In this document: one piece after another, positions 7,234-45,613 of the stretch
Position numbering within the stretch: the stretch's first letter is position 1
Layout of the letters: the number at the start of each line of letters is the position of its first letter
DNA from: Blastococcus sp. URHD0036
GTDB taxonomy: Bacteria > Actinomycetota > Actinomycetes > Mycobacteriales > Geodermatophilaceae
Length of the DNA: 64,000 nt
NCBI RefSeq assembly: GCF_000701365.1
Contig: NZ_JNIK01000005.1
Span: 1 to 64,000 of the forward strand
Direction: 5' to 3'
Position numbers and translations under genes: made by a program
Notes under the pieces: generated by a model
Database searches by the model: none
Seen by the model: the letters and a program-made list of their open reading frames with translations, nothing else
What the model was told of the DNA's origin: nothing

Positions 7234-8259
7234 TCAGCCGGCCGGTGACGGATCCAGCCGGAACAGGGCACGGTCGTCGTAGGCCGTCGCCCACAGCGTT
7301 CCCGCCGCCAGGACGACGTCCCCGCCGGACGTGGCGTCCGGCCACGTGTAGCCGGCCACGGGCTGGCCGTCCTCGGCGTCGAGGGCCACCAGGAAGTGCT
7401 GGGCGCTGCGGACCCACACCACGCCGTCGCCCGCGGCCAGGCCTCCGTCGGCGCCGCTGCCGAACGGGGCGGTGACCTCCACCTGCCCGCTCACCGGGTC
7501 GATGCGCGACGTCGTCGAGCCACCGCTCACCCACACCTGGTCGGTGACGGCGGCCACCGCCGGCCCGTCGAGCCCGCCGACGCGGAGGTCGACCGCCGCG
7601 GTGGCCGGGTCGATCCGCAGCGCGGCACCGTCCGGCGCGCTGACCGCCCAGAGCCCGGCCGGGCCGGCGGCGAGGTCGCTGCCGCGCGCGCCGAGCGCGA
7701 CGGTCGACGTGACCGCACCGGTCGCCGGGTCGAGGCCGAGCAGCGTGCTCCCGTTCCCGGTCAGCACCCAGAGCAGGCCGGCGGCGGTCACCAGGTGGCC
7801 CTGGCTGTACGTCTTGCCGACCGGGAACGTGGCGTCGACGGCGCCCGTGTCCGGGTCGATCCGGACGACGTCGGTCCCCGAGCAGGACCACGCGTAGCCG
7901 AGGCCGGCGCCGATGCCCTGGCAGAGGTCCACGTCCCGGCCGCGCTCGAGCTTGGCCGTCGCCCGGGTCTGCCCCGTTCTCGGGTCCAGCCGGAGCGCCT
8001 GCCCGCCGTCGAGCCTGACCCACACGGCCTCGCCGTCGGCGGCCAGCCAGTCGGGGCTCGGCAGCGCGACGACGGCGTCGTCCGGCACCGGGAACACCGG
8101 GTAGTGCTCCGGTGCGGTGGACGCGGCCACGGCAGCGCCCACGTCCGGCGTGCGGGCAGCGGCCGTCGCAGGTGCTGCCTCGGACGACGTCGCGTCGTCC
8201 GTGCAGGCAGCGACGGTCAGGAGAGCGCAGAACAGCGGGACCACCGGACGGATGCGCAT
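7234..8259 (-). CDS. Beta-propeller lipoprotein (YncE/PQQ-repeat-like)
   Basis: 341 residues. A lipoprotein signal ends at LLTVAAC (Cys19). About six repeats of the kind VWVRLDGGQALRLDP-RTGQ, VVRIDPDTGAV, LLGLDPATGAV and ALRIDPATAAV follow, a pattern of YncE or PQQ-type beta-propeller blades (W-x-x-D/N...DP-x-T/S-G). No enzymatic residues can be assigned. It is probably anchored outside the membrane. The ATG at 8259 is preceded by GGGAGG with 5-base spacing. It is upstream of, and on the same strand as, the Mo-type oxidoreductase, so a joint extracytoplasmic function is possible. Confidence 0.75.
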   Translation of the reverse strand: MRIRPVVPLFCALLTVAACTDDATSSEAAPATAAARTPDVGAAVAASTAPEHYPVFPVPDDAVVALPSPDWLAADGEAVWVRLDGGQALRLDPRTGQTRATAKLERGRDVDLCQGIGAGLGYAWSCSGTDVVRIDPDTGAVDATFPVGKTYSQGHLVTAAGLLWVLTGNGSTLLGLDPATGAVTSTVALGARGSDLAAGPAGLWAVSAPDGAALRIDPATAAVDLRVGGLDGPAVAAVTDQVWVSGGSTTSRIDPVSGQVEVTAPFGSGADGGLAAGDGVVWVRSAQHFLVALDAEDGQPVAGYTWPDATSGGDVVLAAGTLWATAYDDRALFRLDPSPAG

Positions 8260-8373
8260 GACGCCTCCCGAGGCGGGTGATCGCGCGGCCGCGCCAGTGT
8301 CGCGACAGGCCGTCCCCCTGGACAGGGCCGAAGGGCGGCGCTCCCCGCTGGGCCCGACCGCTCGACGGGTTCG

Positions 8374-8399
8374 GGAACCGCCCCGGCTCGCCGGACGTC
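8374..8399 (+). promoter_or_regulatory. Possible ECF-sigma type promoter for the lipoprotein at 8408
   Basis: GGAAC at 8374-8378 and CGTC at 8396-8399 with a 17-base spacer resemble an ECF-class promoter. Transcription would begin near the ATG at 8408. Based on pattern only. Confidence 0.35.
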
Positions 8400-8407
8400 C
8401 TAGGCCC

Positions 8408-8884
8408 ATGGGTCGTCGCCTCGCTCTGACCGCAGCGCTGTGCCTGACCCTGGCGGCCTGCACCGACGACCTCGTCCCCCCGGCGAGCGCGGATCGCGAC
8501 GACTCGCCCTCCTGGTACGGGGGACGGTCGGAGCTGCCGAGCTGCGGGATCGACGAGCCGCACGTCGACGGCTATCGCCGGGTGGAGGCGCGGAACTGCT
8601 TCCGGGCCGCCGTCGAGGCCGACCGCCCCGCCGAGCTGAGCACCCTGCAGTACGGCGACGAGGGCGAGTCCGTCCGGGCGCACTTCCGCGTGCTCGGCGA
8701 CGGCCGCTACGAGATCGTCGCCGAGCAGTTGCCCGGCTCCCTCGACCCGTCCGGTCCCCAGGGATGGGTCCGGTACGAGTGCACGCACTTCCTCTTCATC
8801 GACGACCCCGGCGCCGAGCTCCTGGGCCAACCGGAGATGAACCACGGCGGCGAGTGCACGCAGGTCGAGTACGTCGAGGGCTGA
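8408..8884 (+). CDS. Small lipoprotein of unknown function
   Basis: 158 residues. Signal peptide with lipobox TLAAC (Cys18), then a polar mature part with four further cysteines (SCGIDEP, RNCFRAA, YECTHFLFIDD, GECTQVEY) that could form disulphides outside the membrane. I do not recognise the family. It is divergent from the propeller lipoprotein, and its N-terminus (LAACTDD) is like that of the propeller protein (VAACTDD), so the two may share ancestry at the signal. No ribosome-binding site is visible before the ATG, which fits a leaderless start under the possible ECF promoter. Confidence 0.7.
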   Translation: MGRRLALTAALCLTLAACTDDLVPPASADRDDSPSWYGGRSELPSCGIDEPHVDGYRRVEARNCFRAAVEADRPAELSTLQYGDEGESVRAHFRVLGDGRYEIVAEQLPGSLDPSGPQGWVRYECTHFLFIDDPGAELLGQPEMNHGGECTQVEYVEG

Positions 8885-8888
8885 CCGG

Positions 8889-9488
8889 TCACCACCGGCC
8901 GCGGTGCACGACCTCCTCGACGCCGCGGCGGCCGCGCTTCAGCGACGGTGAGCGGCGGTCCTGCTCGCCGGGGTAGCCGACGGCCACGACGCCCACGGGC
9001 CGGTGCGTGGCGGGCACCCCGAACGCCTCGCGCAGCGCGGCGACCCGCTCGGCCGGGACGCCGAAGAAGCAGGCCGCCAGGCCCTCGTCGACCGCGGTCA
9101 GCAGCATGAGCAGCGAGGCCATCCCGGTGTCGACGTCCCAGTACGGCACCGGCCAACGGGCCTCGTCGCGGTCGGTCCAGCCCTTGTCGGGCTCGGCGTA
9201 CCGGTCCAGGTAGGCGCTCTTGTCGCTGAACGGGACGACGAGCAGCGGCGCGCGGCGCATGCGGGTCAGCCAGCCATCCGGCGTGCCCTCGCCGGTCGTG
9301 GCCGCCCAGAACGCAGCGCGCTCCTCCTCGGTCTCCAGCACCAGGAACGCCCAGCCCTGGCTGAAACCCGCGGACGGCGCCCGGATCGCGTGCGCCAGCA
9401 GCCGCTCGCGGACCTCCGGCGGCACCGGCCGGTCCGGGTCGTAGTCGCGGACCATGCGACGGCGGCGGACGACGTCGGCGAACTCCAC
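8889..9488 (-). CDS. Nitroreductase family FMN oxidoreductase
   Basis: 199 residues. The N-terminal MEFADVVRRRRMVRDYDPDR with the basic Arg cluster that binds FMN phosphate, followed by APSAGFSQGWAFLVLE, is typical of the nitroreductase fold. DTGMASLLMLLTAVDEGLAACFFGVP is the dimer and FMN region, and VGVVAVGYPGE closes the fold. Such enzymes act as NAD(P)H:FMN or F420-like dimeric oxidoreductases; the substrate is not predictable. The start is GTG at 9488. It is divergent from the SDR gene across 98 bases, and convergent with the lipoprotein gene, whose stop is 4 bases away. Confidence 0.85.
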   Translation of the reverse strand: MEFADVVRRRRMVRDYDPDRPVPPEVRERLLAHAIRAPSAGFSQGWAFLVLETEEERAAFWAATTGEGTPDGWLTRMRRAPLLVVPFSDKSAYLDRYAEPDKGWTDRDEARWPVPYWDVDTGMASLLMLLTAVDEGLAACFFGVPAERVAALREAFGVPATHRPVGVVAVGYPGEQDRRSPSLKRGRRGVEEVVHRGRW

Positions 9489-38870: not shown

Positions 38871-40220
38871 ATGCGCACTGGCAGGAACGCTCGCGGCATC
38901 GCCGTGACGAGCGTCGCGCTCATCGCGCTGGCCGCCTGCGGCGGCGGGGACGACGACGACGACAGCAGCTCGGACAGTGGTGACAGCGGCTCCGGCGGCA
39001 GCGCCGGCGTCAACATCTACGGCTCCGACGGCAACATGGGCAGCGCCCTGGGCGACCAGTTCAGCACCGCGGGCGACCTCGCCGGCATGCAGGGCACCAC
39101 GCCCCTGACCGACCTCAGCGGCGACTTCAAGGCCCGGCTGGACGAGATCGACCCCGACCTCGGCGGCACCTACAACTACGCCGGGGAGACCTACGACGCG
39201 TTCGTCCTGATCTCCCTGGCTGCCCAGGCGGCCGGCAGCAGCGAGGCCACCGCCTTCGCGCCGTACATCAACGGGCTCACCTCCGGTGGCGACAAGTGCA
39301 CGGACTTCGCCGCCTGCCTGGAGATCCTCAACGCGGGCGGGAACGTCGACTACGACGGCGCCTCCGGTCCGCTGGACTTCACCGAGGCGGGCGAGCCGGC
39401 CGTGGCGTCGTTCGGTCTCCTGACCTTCGGTGACGACAACGCCATCGACGACTCGCTGACCGAGTTCCAGGTCACCGGCGACGAGACCCTGGCCGCCGGC
39501 GACGAGGGCAGCCCCGCCCCGGTCGCCCCGGGTGCCACCGGCGACCCGCTGATCATCGGCACGCTGCTGCCGCTGACCGGCTCGCTCGCGTTCCTCGGCC
39601 CGCCCGAGGTCGCCGGTGCCCAGCTCGCCCTGCAGGAGGTCAACGAGGCCGGTGGCGTGCTCGGTGCCCCCGTCCAGCTGATCGAGACCGACTCCGGTGA
39701 CACCTCGACCGACACCGCGAACACCAGCGTCGACCGCCTCCTGGCGGAGAACGCGGACGCGATCATCGGTGCGGCGTCCTCGTCGGTCAGCCTCACGGTC
39801 ATCGACAAGATCGTGAACGCCGGCGTCCTGGAGATCTCGCCGGCCAACACGTCCGACCAGTTCACGAACTACAACGACCAGGGGCTGTACTTCCGCACCG
39901 CGCCCCCGGACCAGCTGCAGGCGGTCCCGCTGGCCGACCTCGTGCTGGCCGACGGCAACAGCCGCGTCGGGATCCTGAACCTCAACGACGCCTACGGCAC
40001 GGGTCTGGCCGAGAATGTGTCGGCGAACCTGGTCGACGGTGGCCTGGCCGAGGACGACATCCTCGCCATCACCTACGACCCGAACGCCTCGTCGTACGAC
40101 TCCGAGGTCCAGCAGATGGTGGAGTTCGACCCGGACGCGATCATCGTGATCGGGTTCGACGAGTCCGCCCGCATCATCCAGGAGCTCAACGCCCAGGGCA
40201 TCGGCCCGGCGGGTCGATGA
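38871..40220 (+). CDS. Branched-chain amino-acid ABC transporter binding lipoprotein, circularly permuted
   Basis: 449 residues in one open frame. A lipoprotein signal ends at IALAAC (Cys23), followed by an Asp/Ser/Gly linker. The order is then unusual. Residues 45-205 (GVNIYGSDGNMG to DYDGASGPLDF and LTEFQVTGDE) are what is the C-terminal part in LivJ-type proteins. Residues 224-449 (LIIGTLLPLTGSLAF to ELNAQGIGPAG) are the N-terminal lobe and the start of the second lobe. The normal join would be GIGPA to GVNIYG. A GGGAG precedes the ATG. It is convergent with livHMGF, which it presumably serves. Assembly error must be excluded. Confidence 0.85.
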   Translation: MRTGRNARGIAVTSVALIALAACGGGDDDDDSSSDSGDSGSGGSAGVNIYGSDGNMGSALGDQFSTAGDLAGMQGTTPLTDLSGDFKARLDEIDPDLGGTYNYAGETYDAFVLISLAAQAAGSSEATAFAPYINGLTSGGDKCTDFAACLEILNAGGNVDYDGASGPLDFTEAGEPAVASFGLLTFGDDNAIDDSLTEFQVTGDETLAAGDEGSPAPVAPGATGDPLIIGTLLPLTGSLAFLGPPEVAGAQLALQEVNEAGGVLGAPVQLIETDSGDTSTDTANTSVDRLLAENADAIIGAASSSVSLTVIDKIVNAGVLEISPANTSDQFTNYNDQGLYFRTAPPDQLQAVPLADLVLADGNSRVGILNLNDAYGTGLAENVSANLVDGGLAEDDILAITYDPNASSYDSEVQQMVEFDPDAIIVIGFDESARIIQELNAQGIGPAGR

Positions 40221-40525: not shown

Positions 40526-41383
40526 CTACTGGGCCTTGGCGAGCGTCCCCAGGTAGAGCTCGATCACCTTGGGGTCGTTCATCAGCGACTGCCCGGTGTC
40601 GGTGTAGGCGTTGCGGCCCTGGTCGAGTACGTAGCCGCGGTCGCAGATCTGCAGGCACCGGCGGGCGTTCTGCTCGACCATGATGATCGAGACGCCGGTG
40701 GCGTTGATCTGGCGGCAGCGGATGAAGACCTCGTCCTGGTAAGCGGGGGAGAGGCCCGCCGAGGGCTCGTCGAGCAGCAGCACCGACGGCGACATCATCA
40801 GGGCCCGGCCCATGGCGACCATCTGCCGCTCGCCGCCCGAGAGCGACCCGGCCTTGCCCTTGCGCCGCTCGCCGAGCAGCGGGAAGAGGTCGATCACGTA
40901 GTCGAAGCGCTCGTGGAACGTCTTCGGCCGCAGGTACACGCCCATCTGCATGTTCTCCTCGATGGTGAGCGAGGGGAACACGTTGTTGTTCTGCGGCACG
41001 TAGCCGACGCCGAGCTGCACCAGGCGGTGGGCCGGCGCGGAGGTGATCTCCTCGCCGCGCAGCGTCACCGTGCCCGAGCGGACCGGGATGAGCCCGAAGA
41101 GGGTCTTGAGCAGCGTCGACTTGCCGGCTCCGTTCGGGCCGATGATGCCGACGAGCTCGCCCTCCTGCAGGTAGAAGTCCGCGCCGCGCAGGATGTTGAC
41201 GCCCGGCACGTAGCCGGCGACGAGGTCGTCCCCACGGACCAGGGCGCCCTCGGCGAGGCGGACGTGCTCCTCGCGTGTGGCGGCCTTCTCCGCAGGGGAC
41301 AGCTCGGCGGTGCCCGCCGCGGCCTCCTGCGCCCGGGTGACGCCCTCGCCCGACTCGTCGACCTCGAACAGTGGATCGCTCAT
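40526..41383 (-). CDS. livF: Branched-chain amino-acid ABC transporter ATP-binding protein LivF
   Basis: 285 residues. Walker A GIIGPNGAGKST, Q-loop VGYVPQNNNVFPSLTIEEN, signature LSGGERQMVAMGRALM, Walker B LLLDEPSAGLSP and the H-loop region IIMVEQNARRCLQICDRGYVLDQG, all typical of LivF. An unusual 45-residue polar N-terminal extension precedes the ATPase domain, which starts at LVRGDDLVAGYVPGVNIL. Cytoplasmic; forms the ATPase pair with LivG. The ATG overlaps the livG stop by 4 bases. Last gene of livH-livM-livG-livF. Confidence 0.94.
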   Translation of the reverse strand: MSDPLFEVDESGEGVTRAQEAAAGTAELSPAEKAATREEHVRLAEGALVRGDDLVAGYVPGVNILRGADFYLQEGELVGIIGPNGAGKSTLLKTLFGLIPVRSGTVTLRGEEITSAPAHRLVQLGVGYVPQNNNVFPSLTIEENMQMGVYLRPKTFHERFDYVIDLFPLLGERRKGKAGSLSGGERQMVAMGRALMMSPSVLLLDEPSAGLSPAYQDEVFIRCRQINATGVSIIMVEQNARRCLQICDRGYVLDQGRNAYTDTGQSLMNDPKVIELYLGTLAKAQ

Positions 41384-42417
41384 CGCTGGGTCCCCTCGCG
41401 GTCGGTGCTCTCGGAGCTCAGGACCTCACCCGAGACGCCCTCCTCGCGGGCGATCGCCGCCGCGGCCTCGGCGAGCACACGCTCCTCCTCGTCGACGGTC
41501 AGCGGCGCGTCGTGGTGGGCGCCCAGGTAGGCGTCGACGACGGCCCGGTTCTGGCTGATCGACTCCGGCGGACCCTCGGCGATCACCTTGCCGGCGGCCA
41601 TGACGACCACCCAGTCGCTGATGTCGCGGACGACGTCCATGTCGTGCTCGACGAAGATCACCGTCATGCCCTGCTCGCGCAGGTCCTTGACGTGCCCGAG
41701 CAGGCTCTGGGTCAGCGCGGGGTTCACGCCGGCCATCGGCTCGTCGAGCATGACGACCTTCGGGTCGCTCATCAGCGCGCGGGCCATCTCCAGCAGCTTG
41801 CGCTGACCGCCGGAGAGCGTGCCGGCGAAGTCGTCCTTCTTCGCGTCCAGCTTGAACCGGGCGAGCAGGTCGAGCGCCTTCTCGGTGTTCGCCTTCTCCT
41901 GGGCGCGCCAGACCCCGGGGACCAGCGAGCGGAAGAAGCCCTCCCCGCGCTGGTCCTTGGCGCCGAGCAGCATGTTCTGCATCACGCTGAGCCGGGAGAG
42001 CGCCTTGGTGAGCTGGAAGGTGCGCACGACGCCGAGCCGCGCCACCTGGTGCGGGGACAGCTTGCCGAGGGAGCGGCCGTCGAAGGACCACGTCCCGGAG
42101 TTCGGCTGGTCGAACCCGGTGAGCAGGTTGAACAGCGTCGTCTTCCCGGCACCGTTGGGTCCGATGAGGCCGGTGATCCCGCTGCGCTGGATCTCGAGGT
42201 GGTCGACCGACACCGCGGTCAGGCCACCGAACGTGCGGGTCACCCCGTCGACCACGATGGCCGGGTCGGGCTTGGCGACACCGATCTCCCACGGCACGTC
42301 CCGCAGGGCGGCCTGCGCGAGCCGGGCGGGCGCCGCCGGGGCGGCGGTCGGAGCCGACTGCTGGGCGGCCGGCTGCTGGGAGGCGGCGGTGGCCCCGTGT
42401 GGCTGGTCAGCGGGCAT
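41380..42417 (-). CDS. livG: Branched-chain amino-acid ABC transporter ATP-binding protein LivG
   Basis: 345 residues. Walker A GLIGPNGAGKTT, signature LSGGQRKLLEMARAL, Walker B VVMLDEPMAGVNPALTQ and the LivG-type VIFVEHDMDVVRDISDWVVVM. An Ala/Gln/Pro-rich N-terminal extension of about 40 residues and a C-terminal extension of about 45 residues make it longer than the usual 255. Overlaps livM by 11 bases and livF by 4, so translation of the operon is coupled. Confidence 0.94.
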   Translation of the reverse strand: MPADQPHGATAASQQPAAQQSAPTAAPAAPARLAQAALRDVPWEIGVAKPDPAIVVDGVTRTFGGLTAVSVDHLEIQRSGITGLIGPNGAGKTTLFNLLTGFDQPNSGTWSFDGRSLGKLSPHQVARLGVVRTFQLTKALSRLSVMQNMLLGAKDQRGEGFFRSLVPGVWRAQEKANTEKALDLLARFKLDAKKDDFAGTLSGGQRKLLEMARALMSDPKVVMLDEPMAGVNPALTQSLLGHVKDLREQGMTVIFVEHDMDVVRDISDWVVVMAAGKVIAEGPPESISQNRAVVDAYLGAHHDAPLTVDEEERVLAEAAAAIAREEGVSGEVLSSESTDREGTQR

Positions 42418-43423
42418 CGAGCATCACCTCTCGTCGGTCACCCAGGATGCCCTGGGGCCGGAAGATCATGAGGAGCATCAGCCCCACACCGATGATGATG
42501 AACCGGATGTAGGCGATGTCGGTCGTCGAGAGCAGGTCGCCCCACTCGAAGAGACCGAAGAAGGAGTTGTCCCCGCTGACCAGGGCGGCGAGCGCGCTGT
42601 CGGAGAACGCGATGATGAACCACAGCAGCATCGCTCCGATGACCGGTCCCATGACCCGGGCGGCACCGCCGAGGATGAGCGCGCCGTAGGCGAGGAACGT
42701 GTTGGCGTTCTGGTACTGGTCCGGGTTCTGGGAGCCCGTGCCGACCGCGTAGACCATCCCGCCGAGCGCCCCGAACACACCGCCCAGGACGAGCGACTGC
42801 ATCTTGAACGCGTAGACGTTCTTGCCGAGGGCGCGGGCGGCGTCCTCGTCCTCGCGGACGGCCCGCAGCACGCGGCCCCAGGGGCTGCGCATGAGCGCCC
42901 ACACGAGGAGGCAGCTCAACGCGACCAGGGTCCACCCGACGGTGATCACCCAGAGCTCACCGCCGCTCCAGCGGGTGCCGAGGATGTCGTAGCGCTTGGC
43001 CACCGACCACGGGGCCAGCGACAGGAAGTCCGCGTTGAAGTCGGAGATGCCCTGCGTGCTGTTCGTCAGCTCCGTCGACCCGCCGGACCGGAAGACCAGG
43101 CGCAACGCCTCGGCCGCGGCGATCGTGACGATCGCGAGGTAGTCGGCGCGCAGCCGCAGGGTGGGCAGGCCGAGGAGCAGGGCAAGGAACACCGCCGCGG
43201 CGATGCCGACGAGGACGCCGACCCAGAACGGCAGGTCCCACTTCGACACCGAGATGGCGACGCCGAAGCCGCCGAGCATCGCGAAGGCGATCTGCCCGAA
43301 GTTGAGCAGGCCGGTGTAGCCGAAGTGGAGGTTCAGGCCGATGGCCAGGAGGGCGAAGAACACCGCCTGGTAGGCGAACATCGCGCGGACGCCGAGCTGG
43401 AAGGCGTCGAGGAGGTCTGCCAT
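42407..43423 (-). CDS. livM: Branched-chain amino-acid ABC transporter permease LivM
   Basis: 338 residues, strongly hydrophobic with about nine helices. The conserved LivM segments are visible: GLNLHFGYTGLLNFGQIAFAMLGGFG near residues 28-53, GLPTLRLRADYLAIVTIAAAEALRLV near 86-111, and the EAA-like cytoplasmic loop SPWGRVLRAVREDEDAARALGKN, which contacts the ATPases. The C-terminal IGVGLMLLMIFRPQGILGDRRE is typical. It lies 5 bases after livH on the same strand and overlaps livG. Confidence 0.94.
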   Translation of the reverse strand: MADLLDAFQLGVRAMFAYQAVFFALLAIGLNLHFGYTGLLNFGQIAFAMLGGFGVAISVSKWDLPFWVGVLVGIAAAVFLALLLGLPTLRLRADYLAIVTIAAAEALRLVFRSGGSTELTNSTQGISDFNADFLSLAPWSVAKRYDILGTRWSGGELWVITVGWTLVALSCLLVWALMRSPWGRVLRAVREDEDAARALGKNVYAFKMQSLVLGGVFGALGGMVYAVGTGSQNPDQYQNANTFLAYGALILGGAARVMGPVIGAMLLWFIIAFSDSALAALVSGDNSFFGLFEWGDLLSTTDIAYIRFIIIGVGLMLLMIFRPQGILGDRREVMLDAR

Positions 43424-43428
43424 GGCCG

Positions 43429-44790
43429 TCAGCCGATCCGGGCTTTGCTGCCCAGGATGCCCTGGGGCCGGACGATCAGGATGAGGATCAAGAGCAGCAG
43501 CCCTCCGACGTACTTCATGTCATCACGGATGACGAGCGTGGACATCTGCACGAAGACGCCGACGATGACGCTGCCGATGAGAGCGCCGTAGGCGGTTCCG
43601 AGGCCACCGAGGGTGACGCCGGCGAACATGAGCAGCAGCAGGCGGAAGCCCATGTCCCACTGGATCTGGTCCGACAGCCCGAGCAGCACCCCGCCGAGCG
43701 CGGCGAGCGCGCCGCCCATGACCCAGACGACCAGGATCACGCGGTCGACGTTGATGCCCGAGGAGGCGGCGAGGTCGCGGTTGTCGGCGACCGCGCGCAT
43801 CGCCTTGCCGATCCGGGTGCGCTGCAGCATCAGGGCCACGGCGAGCAGGACGACGAGCGAGATGATGATCGAGTACAGGTCCCGGTCGGTGAGGGCGAAG
43901 GTGCCGTAGTCCCGAGCGCGCTGCGACTGGTAGTCGGTGTAGGGGTTGGAGCGGCCGCCGTAGACCGTCTGGATGATGTAGCGCACCGCCAGCGACAGAC
44001 CGATCGAGACCACCAGCGCCGCGACGAGGCCGGTGCCCCGCCGGCGCAGCGGCCGCCACAGCGCCAGCTCGTTGAGCGCGCCGATCAACCCGCCGATGAT
44101 CACGGCCAGCACGGCCGAGGCCAGCAGGGGGATGTCGGCGTCCACGTTGAGGTAGAAGGCGACGATCGCGCCGATGGTGACCATCTCGCCGTGCGCGAAG
44201 TTGGTCAGGCCGGTCGTGCCGAAGATCAGCGAGAGGCCGACGGCGCAGATCGCGATGAGCAACCCGAAGCGCAGCCCGTCGACGAACAGCTGGACGGCGA
44301 GGATGCGTTCGCTGCCCCCGCCCCGCTCACCGGAGGAGAGGGCGAAGTTCACCGGCTCCCGGCCGTTGACCTCGACGGTGACCGTGCGGGTGTCGCCGCC
44401 GCCACCGACCGTCACGCCCTCGGGCAGGGAGTCGGCGTCGAGGGTGACGACGTACTCGCCGGCGGCGGGCACCGGCACCGAGAAGCGGCCGCGTTCGTCG
44501 CTCTCGGCCTCGCCGACCTCCTGGCCGTCCGCGGTCTCGACCGTGACCGTCACGCCCTCGATGGGGCCGGTCGTGTTGGTCGTCAGCGTGCCGCGGACCT
44601 GCTCGCCGTCCGCCGAGGCGACGCCCGGCGTGAGGACGGCGATGCCGAGGCCGACGAAGGTGACCAGCAGCAGCCGGATGAGGGTCCGCTTGCCGGTGGA
44701 TCGGTGACCGGGGGTACCGGTCTTCCCCGCGGAGGGGGACGGCGTCCGACGGGGGTCTTCCCGGCGGACGCGATCTGGCGCGTGCGTCAC
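43429..44790 (-). CDS. livH: LivH permease fused to an N-terminal secreted carboxypeptidase-regulatory-like domain
   Basis: 453 residues, against about 300 for ordinary LivH. Residues 36-60 form a signal-like segment ending VASA. Residues 64-150 (RGTLTTNTTGPIEGVTVTV, ESDERGRFSVPVPAAGEYVVTLD, VEVNGREPVNFAL) look like a CarboxypepD_reg/Ig-like beta-sandwich facing outside. The permease begins near 165: FGLLIAICAVGLSLIFGTTGLTNFAHGEMV, the loop RTRIGKAMRAVADNRDLAASSGIN and the C-terminal RPQGILGSKARIG. GTG 44790 has GGGAG upstream. It is the first gene of the operon; TACCGT near 44826 may be its -10 box. Confidence 0.9.
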   Translation of the reverse strand: MTHAPDRVRREDPRRTPSPSAGKTGTPGHRSTGKRTLIRLLLVTFVGLGIAVLTPGVASADGEQVRGTLTTNTTGPIEGVTVTVETADGQEVGEAESDERGRFSVPVPAAGEYVVTLDADSLPEGVTVGGGGDTRTVTVEVNGREPVNFALSSGERGGGSERILAVQLFVDGLRFGLLIAICAVGLSLIFGTTGLTNFAHGEMVTIGAIVAFYLNVDADIPLLASAVLAVIIGGLIGALNELALWRPLRRRGTGLVAALVVSIGLSLAVRYIIQTVYGGRSNPYTDYQSQRARDYGTFALTDRDLYSIIISLVVLLAVALMLQRTRIGKAMRAVADNRDLAASSGINVDRVILVVWVMGGALAALGGVLLGLSDQIQWDMGFRLLLLMFAGVTLGGLGTAYGALIGSVIVGVFVQMSTLVIRDDMKYVGGLLLLILILIVRPQGILGSKARIG

Positions 44791-44980
44791 GCGTGCTCCC
44801 TGCGTGTCAGTGGAGCACGGACGGTAACCCAGGGATGTTGCACAACTGTTCCGCAGCCGGACAGCTGTGACCGTTCCGCGACCCGCCACTCCTGCCACGA
44901 CCGTCACGGAGACGGCGCGCCGGAGTGGTGGGAGCCGACGGCGCTGCCATCCTGCGCCCACCGTCAAGGGGAGGCATCCG

Positions 44981-45613
44981 GTGTCCGCATCCGGTTCTCG
45001 GTCCCACGTCCGGACCCGCGTCGCACAGCTCGGTGACCTGCCCGTCGTCCTGTCGCTGGTCCGCCAGCACCGGTCGGACTCCCACGCGGAGGGCGTGCTC
45101 ACCGGTCAGGCGCCCGGGTCGGCGGCCGCGGCCGGGTTCCGGCGGCTGCTCGCCGACGCCGGGTACCGCGTGGTCCTCGCGGTGCTGCCGGGCGCGACCA
45201 CCCGCTCGGGGGACACCCCGGGTGACGAGGTGGTCGGTCTGGCCGTCCTGGGGCTGGACCCGCTGTCGGTGGTGCTCGGCGTCCCGCAGGTGACGATCGA
45301 CAACCTCGTCGTCCACCGCGACCACCGGCGGCGCGGGGTCGGTGCCGCGCTGCTGGCCGCGGCGGCGGAGCACGCGCAGCGCTGCGGCGCCGGGCACGTC
45401 GTCGCGGCGGTGGGGCACGAGGCGGAACGGCAGCGGTTCTTCGCCCGCATGGGCTTCGCGCCCCTGCACGGCCGGCGGATCGTGCCCCGGGACAACCTCC
45501 TGCGGGCCCTGGCCGGCCGGCAGCGCGGCGGCGCGGCCGTCCCGCTGCCGCGGCGCCGGCGGCCGTTGCCGGCCCGGGCACTGCCGGCGCTCGGCCGGGT
45601 CCTCGAGGCCTGA
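44981..45613 (+). CDS. GNAT-family N-acetyltransferase
   Basis: 210 residues. The acetyl-CoA fold is seen as GDEVVGLAVLGLDPLSVVLGVPQVTIDNLVVHRDHRRRGVGAALLAAAAEHAQRCG, where RDHRRRGVGAAL is the pyrophosphate-binding Q/RxxGxG/A loop, then the C-terminal strand ERQRFFARMGFAPLHGRRIV. The acceptor is unknown. The GTG at 44981 is chosen because AAGGGGAGG lies 6 bases before it; longer in-frame starts lack such a signal. Divergent from the liv operon across 190 bases that hold both promoters and no other gene. Confidence 0.83.
   Translation: MSASGSRSHVRTRVAQLGDLPVVLSLVRQHRSDSHAEGVLTGQAPGSAAAAGFRRLLADAGYRVVLAVLPGATTRSGDTPGDEVVGLAVLGLDPLSVVLGVPQVTIDNLVVHRDHRRRGVGAALLAAAAEHAQRCGAGHVVAAVGHEAERQRFFARMGFAPLHGRRIVPRDNLLRALAGRQRGGAAVPLPRRRRPLPARALPALGRVLEA

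Follow-up and report, generated by a model that had tools for sequence, protein, structure and literature searches.

A naturally circularly permuted LivJ-type binding lipoprotein of Blastococcus and its probably repeated origin

The first 64,000 nucleotides of contig NZ_JNIK01000005.1 of Blastococcus sp. URHD0036 (Geodermatophilaceae) were analyzed, and this whole stretch is hereafter called the window. The gene at 38871..40220 (+ strand), which adjoins a livFGMH importer gene cluster, encodes a substrate-binding lipoprotein of the LivJ type in which the two pieces of the chain are swapped behind a signal peptide left in place. This natural circular permutation, proposed in a preliminary description made from the sequence alone, is confirmed here. 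We hold it to be very likely that the product is a permuted type I protein acting as receptor for the LivFGMH next to it, with branched-chain amino acids or similar ones as probable ligands, and that it belongs to a group of proteins in which permutation probably occurred at least three times.

The frame 38871..40220 is open and yields the 449 residues described before; a chance open reading frame (ORF) was ruled out, as homology spans nearly the whole mature length. The lipoprotein signal peptide (residues 1–22; 38871..38936) carries the signal ALAAC with the lipobox cysteine as residue 23, and A22 and C23 are invariant in a 16-row alignment. It is followed by a flexible tether rich in D, S and G (residues 24–45; 38940..39005) with predicted local distance difference test (pLDDT) values below 50 at residues 1–44, and by the former C-terminal piece, which comprises residues 46–205 (39006..39485) from the VNIYGSDGN strand and hinge segment onwards. 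A new linker (residues 206–224; 39486..39542), identified by pLDDT and by the best rotation points given below, joins the two former chain ends, and the former N-terminal piece, ending in GIGPAGR, comes last (residues 225–449; 39543..40217). The lipobox had thus been rightly reported as kept, the earlier boundaries of 45–205 and 224–449 are correct within a residue or two, and the proposed flexible linker between the old termini agrees with a pLDDT block mean of 55 at residues 211–220 in the AlphaFold2 model. Both pieces are under purifying selection, and sequence comparison showed conserved pocket positions.

For the arrangement of the chain, the protein was compared with L123, a conventional homologue belonging to a different family within the order. 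BLASTP returned two segments in swapped order, residues 226–447 matching positions 7–228 with 64% identity and residues 40–192 matching positions 224–374 with 49% identity. Rotations of the chain were then scored in silico against a profile of 381 positions built from 24 conventional proteins. The native chain scored 327.1 bits and covered profile positions 6–225, while the best rotations, restarting at residues 203–205 and 213–221 in or beside the linker, reached 508.8–508.9 bits and covered positions 5–374, so that swapping the pieces before alignment, as had been suggested, restored nearly the whole profile. With the Pfam family Peripla_BP_6 the protein scored 119.1 bits (curated cut-off 31.7) over positions 4–217 of 343 only. 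This match stems from residues 224–449, which also match ANF_receptor positions 6–201, and residues 46–215 match ANF_receptor positions 269–344 of 353 with 20.2 bits (E 3.4e-4), below the curated cut-off of 25.4. Among the 20 Peripla_BP_6 matches above the cut-off in the genome, this one included, it alone ends at position 217; the other 19 reach position 315 or beyond. The canonical LivJ topology, with the N-terminal piece (N-piece) before the C-terminal piece (C-piece), is therefore reversed.

Related genomes, a search of which the preliminary description had recommended, were found to share this order. The permuted protein was matched over its full length in 92 of the family's 112 genomes; three more have partial matches in short frames consistent with the permuted order, and 17 have no match. 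In three of the 92 (G031, G904, G989) there is also a further match that covers just the N-piece, which is the pattern of conventional proteins, and the one read, in G031, has the conventional order (L202). That locus (7875–9431) is a second liv cluster of this own-family genome, and its receptor and transporter genes share one strand. Six genomes of the family, belonging to the genera g3 (four), g5 (one) and g11 (one), carry an additional permuted match of full or almost full length (G021:C1:1961803, G786:C10:317118, G004:C11:38989, G911:C4:2087574, G016:C407:2029 and G964:C435:595). Wider samples were taken from the order, the phylum and the class of genome G368, taken as Acidimicrobiia on the basis of named relatives, Desertimonas flava among them; in all three the first look scored four to five candidates per genome, so misses are possible. 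In the order sample, 124 of 298 genomes match, 92 of them with permuted proteins (46 of the own family f1, 45 of family f16 and one of f13); the other 32 gave N-piece-only or N-then-C matches, and all 14 that were read are conventional. Matches were obtained in 70 of 396 genomes of the phylum sample (eight permuted; 22 of the other 62 read, all conventional) and in 56 of 296 genomes of the class sample (11 permuted; 22 of the other 45 read, all conventional). The family of G153 added 25 matches in 35 genomes, two of them permuted; two others were read and both are conventional. Finally, a scan of GTDB contigs gave 488 loci, and the best 80, ranked by match to the permuted query, are all permuted, with Blastococcus, Modestobacter, Geodermatophilus, Klenkia, Goekera, Trujillonella and Desertimonas among their genera.

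Two cut sites about 20 residues apart were found among the permuted proteins. In type A (Geodermatophilaceae, f16 and locus L110) the new N-terminus lies before VNIYGSDGN, the cut falling at GIGP|VNIYGSDGN near the second lobe crossover. In type B, comprising 16 ORFs (L112-L114, L117-L122, L166-L171 and L176), the equivalent segment stays C-terminal (ending like GNMGNALGENFDAGK) and the new N-terminus lies about 20 residues later, before ELEGMKGT. One type B receptor, that of Desertimonas flava (L112 3148-5385), has a signal peptide seemingly without a clear lipobox cysteine. Classification of 167 ORFs by the order of their pieces gave 111 CN, 40 NC, 12 CNC and four single pieces. The CNC class merely reflects the shifted cut of type B, and no tandem-duplication intermediates were found among these 167 ORFs.

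The number of permutations was addressed by three trees. The first was built from 40 conventional rows plus 20 of type A and 16 of type B. The majority of the 107 type A ORFs (a count that includes duplicates) was omitted for redundancy, and so were the duplicates L115, L116 and L162 and the partial L031 and L034. For the second tree, 60 of these 76 rows were kept after removal of the long branches L176, L140 and L141 and of 13 near-duplicates, and the third was built from 48 rows chosen from both sets and included further rows from the order, omitting L243 as a copy of L110. In the 60-row tree the permuted proteins form separate groups among conventional ones: group B1 has a support of 99/99, group B2 joins the conventional L177 with 99/95, and group A (itself 78/23) lies inside a 100/99 branch together with the conventional L123. 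On this tree the approximately unbiased (AU) test rejected an all-permuted clade (p 0.00033), B1+B2 (p 0.0019), A+B1 (p 0.011) and A+B2 (p 2.3e-5). The all-permuted grouping follows the trait, but B1 and B2 were separated after the first tree, so that the p-values involving this split are post hoc. Each piece alone also rejected all-permuted and B1+B2 (N-piece, 0.0004 and 0.0067; C-piece, 0.0062 and 0.0165). In the 48-row tree, in which the permuted f16 receptors that were read form a long branch, an all-permuted clade was again rejected (1.8e-9). Because of the separate tree groups and the rejection of a single origin, permutation probably occurred at least three times, as judged from these sequence trees.

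This would place one origin in group A (Geodermatophilaceae, f16 and L110), one in B1 (Acidimicrobiia and kin) and one in B2 (one genus of family f30). Alternatively, permutation could have happened just once, in the distant past; the cut site would then have shifted and the conventional order been regained repeatedly, or permuted copies would have recombined with conventional ones. The permuted forms that were read do fall in one subfamily with cuts close together, and a single origin of the Geodermatophilaceae and f16 forms of group A is not rejected (p 0.268). Nevertheless, the AU tests on the whole chain and on both pieces speak against this course of events, and every return to the conventional order would require another permutation, so that we consider it unlikely.

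The importer genes lie on the - strand, convergent with the receptor gene. They comprise livF (40526..41383; ATP-binding protein with ABC_tran; also the neighbour in relatives), livG (41380..42417; ATP-binding protein with ABC_tran and BCA_ABC_TP_C), livM (42407..43423; permease with BPD_transp_2) and livH (43429..45102; permease with an added N-terminal extracytoplasmic domain). The LivH frame of 557 residues, whose true start is probably internal, contains a CarboxypepD_reg-like domain at residues 168–255 (44338..44601; PF13620, E 3.1e-9) and BPD_transp_2 at residues 274–542; a signal-peptide-like stretch was also noticed before the permease part. When the CarboxypepD_reg-like stretch of the window's LivH was used for searching, the added domain was found in 33 of 34 LivH loci of a first set and in seven of 11 of a second one. 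It accompanies receptors of both orders, and a one-to-one link between the fused domain and the permutation is thus unsupported.

Among the first 38 loci that were read, 22 of 26 permuted and eight of 12 conventional receptor genes adjoin livF in convergent orientation; among 20 further loci from the order this holds for 12 of 13 conventional and one of seven permuted cases. Seven permuted f16 loci (L201, L240-L242, L257-L259) have no liv genes within the 7-9 kilobases fetched on each side. Outside f16, the permutation thus looks like an in-place change of an orthologous gene. In the two B2 genomes (L193, L194) the permuted receptor gene lies divergent beside livH, not convergent beside livF, and the gene therefore also changed its place.

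A real protein that is non-functional or repurposed, either a relic no longer serving LivFGMH or a sensor instead of a transport receptor, would fit the seven f16 copies without liv genes nearby and the 20 Peripla_BP_6 matches of the genome. Since purifying selection acts on both pieces, the pocket and lipobox positions are invariant and livF is the neighbour in most of the first permuted loci, we judge this very improbable. An assembly or recombination artefact confined to one genome, the main alternative of the preliminary description, has no observation in its favour and is practically excluded, because the order recurs in the 92 family genomes and all 80 kept GTDB loci, that is, in independent assemblies of many species including single-contig genomes such as G003 and G021.

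For the permuted receptor of LivFGMH, the following mechanism is proposed. The protein would be a lipid-anchored type I binding protein with two lobes closing like a Venus flytrap, in which a linker of about 19 residues joins the old termini and the new termini arose ahead of the final strand of the C-terminal lobe, beside the second lobe crossover. Duplication, fusion and trimming would be a likely route of origin. As fold and ligand cleft appear to be kept, the receptor is expected to close around its ligand and hand it over to LivHM, with the membrane tether near the hinge rather than at the first strand of the N-lobe. As to the two-lobe fold, the AlphaFold2 model is confident (predicted template modelling score 0.84), and the match to solved structures spans residues 222–449 only. 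More tentatively, and with considerable doubt, the permutation might be selected and recurrent in this importer family, at least three lineages having independently shifted the lipid-anchored N-terminus away from the first strand of the N-lobe and to the second hinge crossover, perhaps since the added domain of LivH docks the receptor and thereby makes the position of the tether adjustable.

Several points weigh against a functional receptor permuted at least three times. The 17 family genomes without a match and the f16 loci without liv genes nearby belong here, as does that limited structural match: for residues 46–205 the fold is suggested by sequence homology and AlphaFold2 confidence. Ligand and transport role are what we infer, and the receptor may be redundant because of the 20 Peripla_BP_6 matches in its genome. 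With respect to the number of origins, clade B2 consists of two genomes of one genus, and group A, besides its weak support in the 60-row tree, is not one side of a branch in the N-piece tree and appears in 8% of the bootstraps there; its unity is unsure, and it could hide more than one permutation event.

A type I binding protein permuted in nature has been described before, and recurrence is the most unusual part of the present case. In PMC4990184, TpMglB-2 (Tp0684) of Treponema is presented as a naturally circularly permuted, lipid-anchored type I binding protein of an ATP-binding cassette (ABC) importer, like the Blastococcus protein, and is assigned to the proposed Type Ic or Cluster Bc proteins. 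According to the same text, several lineages carry Type Ic-like permuted forms, as is the case for the Blastococcus-type receptor, and TpMglB-2 has an extra fourth lobe crossover, which the Blastococcus protein would share. TpMglB-2 is further described there as a glucose receptor in which strands one to three of the N-lobe have been transferred to the C-terminus, with both chain ends in the N-lobe (PMC4990184). In the Blastococcus protein, by contrast, the moved part amounts to about 225 residues and exceeds half of the mature chain; this protein is cut at the second crossover, belongs to an amino-acid-type family and shows three or more apparent origins. Measured against the published account of Type Ic, it is a permuted type I protein without the cut inside the N-lobe and the transfer of three strands. 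Among the 45 PDB sequences matched at E values of 0.001 or lower, none carries the name TpMglB-2, in a comparison by name only. The LivJ/LivK-type proteins (HAAT, Peripla_BP_6; e.g. 3ipc, 4n0q, 4gnr and 1usg) share the homology of both pieces, the predicted fold and the partner LivFGMH, whereas in the Blastococcus protein the pieces are reversed, and both the termini and the linker are new. Glycine betaine-binding proteins, molybdate-binding proteins and CysB are of the type II fold class. They are also two-lobe binding proteins related by circular permutation and form a circular-permutation family, in which, according to PMC2395249, the proteins compared are less than 24% identical, whereas here relatives with 49–64% identity differ in order. 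No report of a naturally permuted receptor of the branched-chain amino-acid type was found in open-access papers, which is weak evidence of absence.

Annotation is affected as well, since the Peripla_BP_6 match in this protein is confined to the opening part of the profile. Both chain orders occur among relatives of 49–64% identity, which often share a genomic location, and together with the two cut sites and the apparently at least three origins this amounts to a natural experiment, done several times over, on why the order of the chain and the placement of the tether matter in binding proteins.
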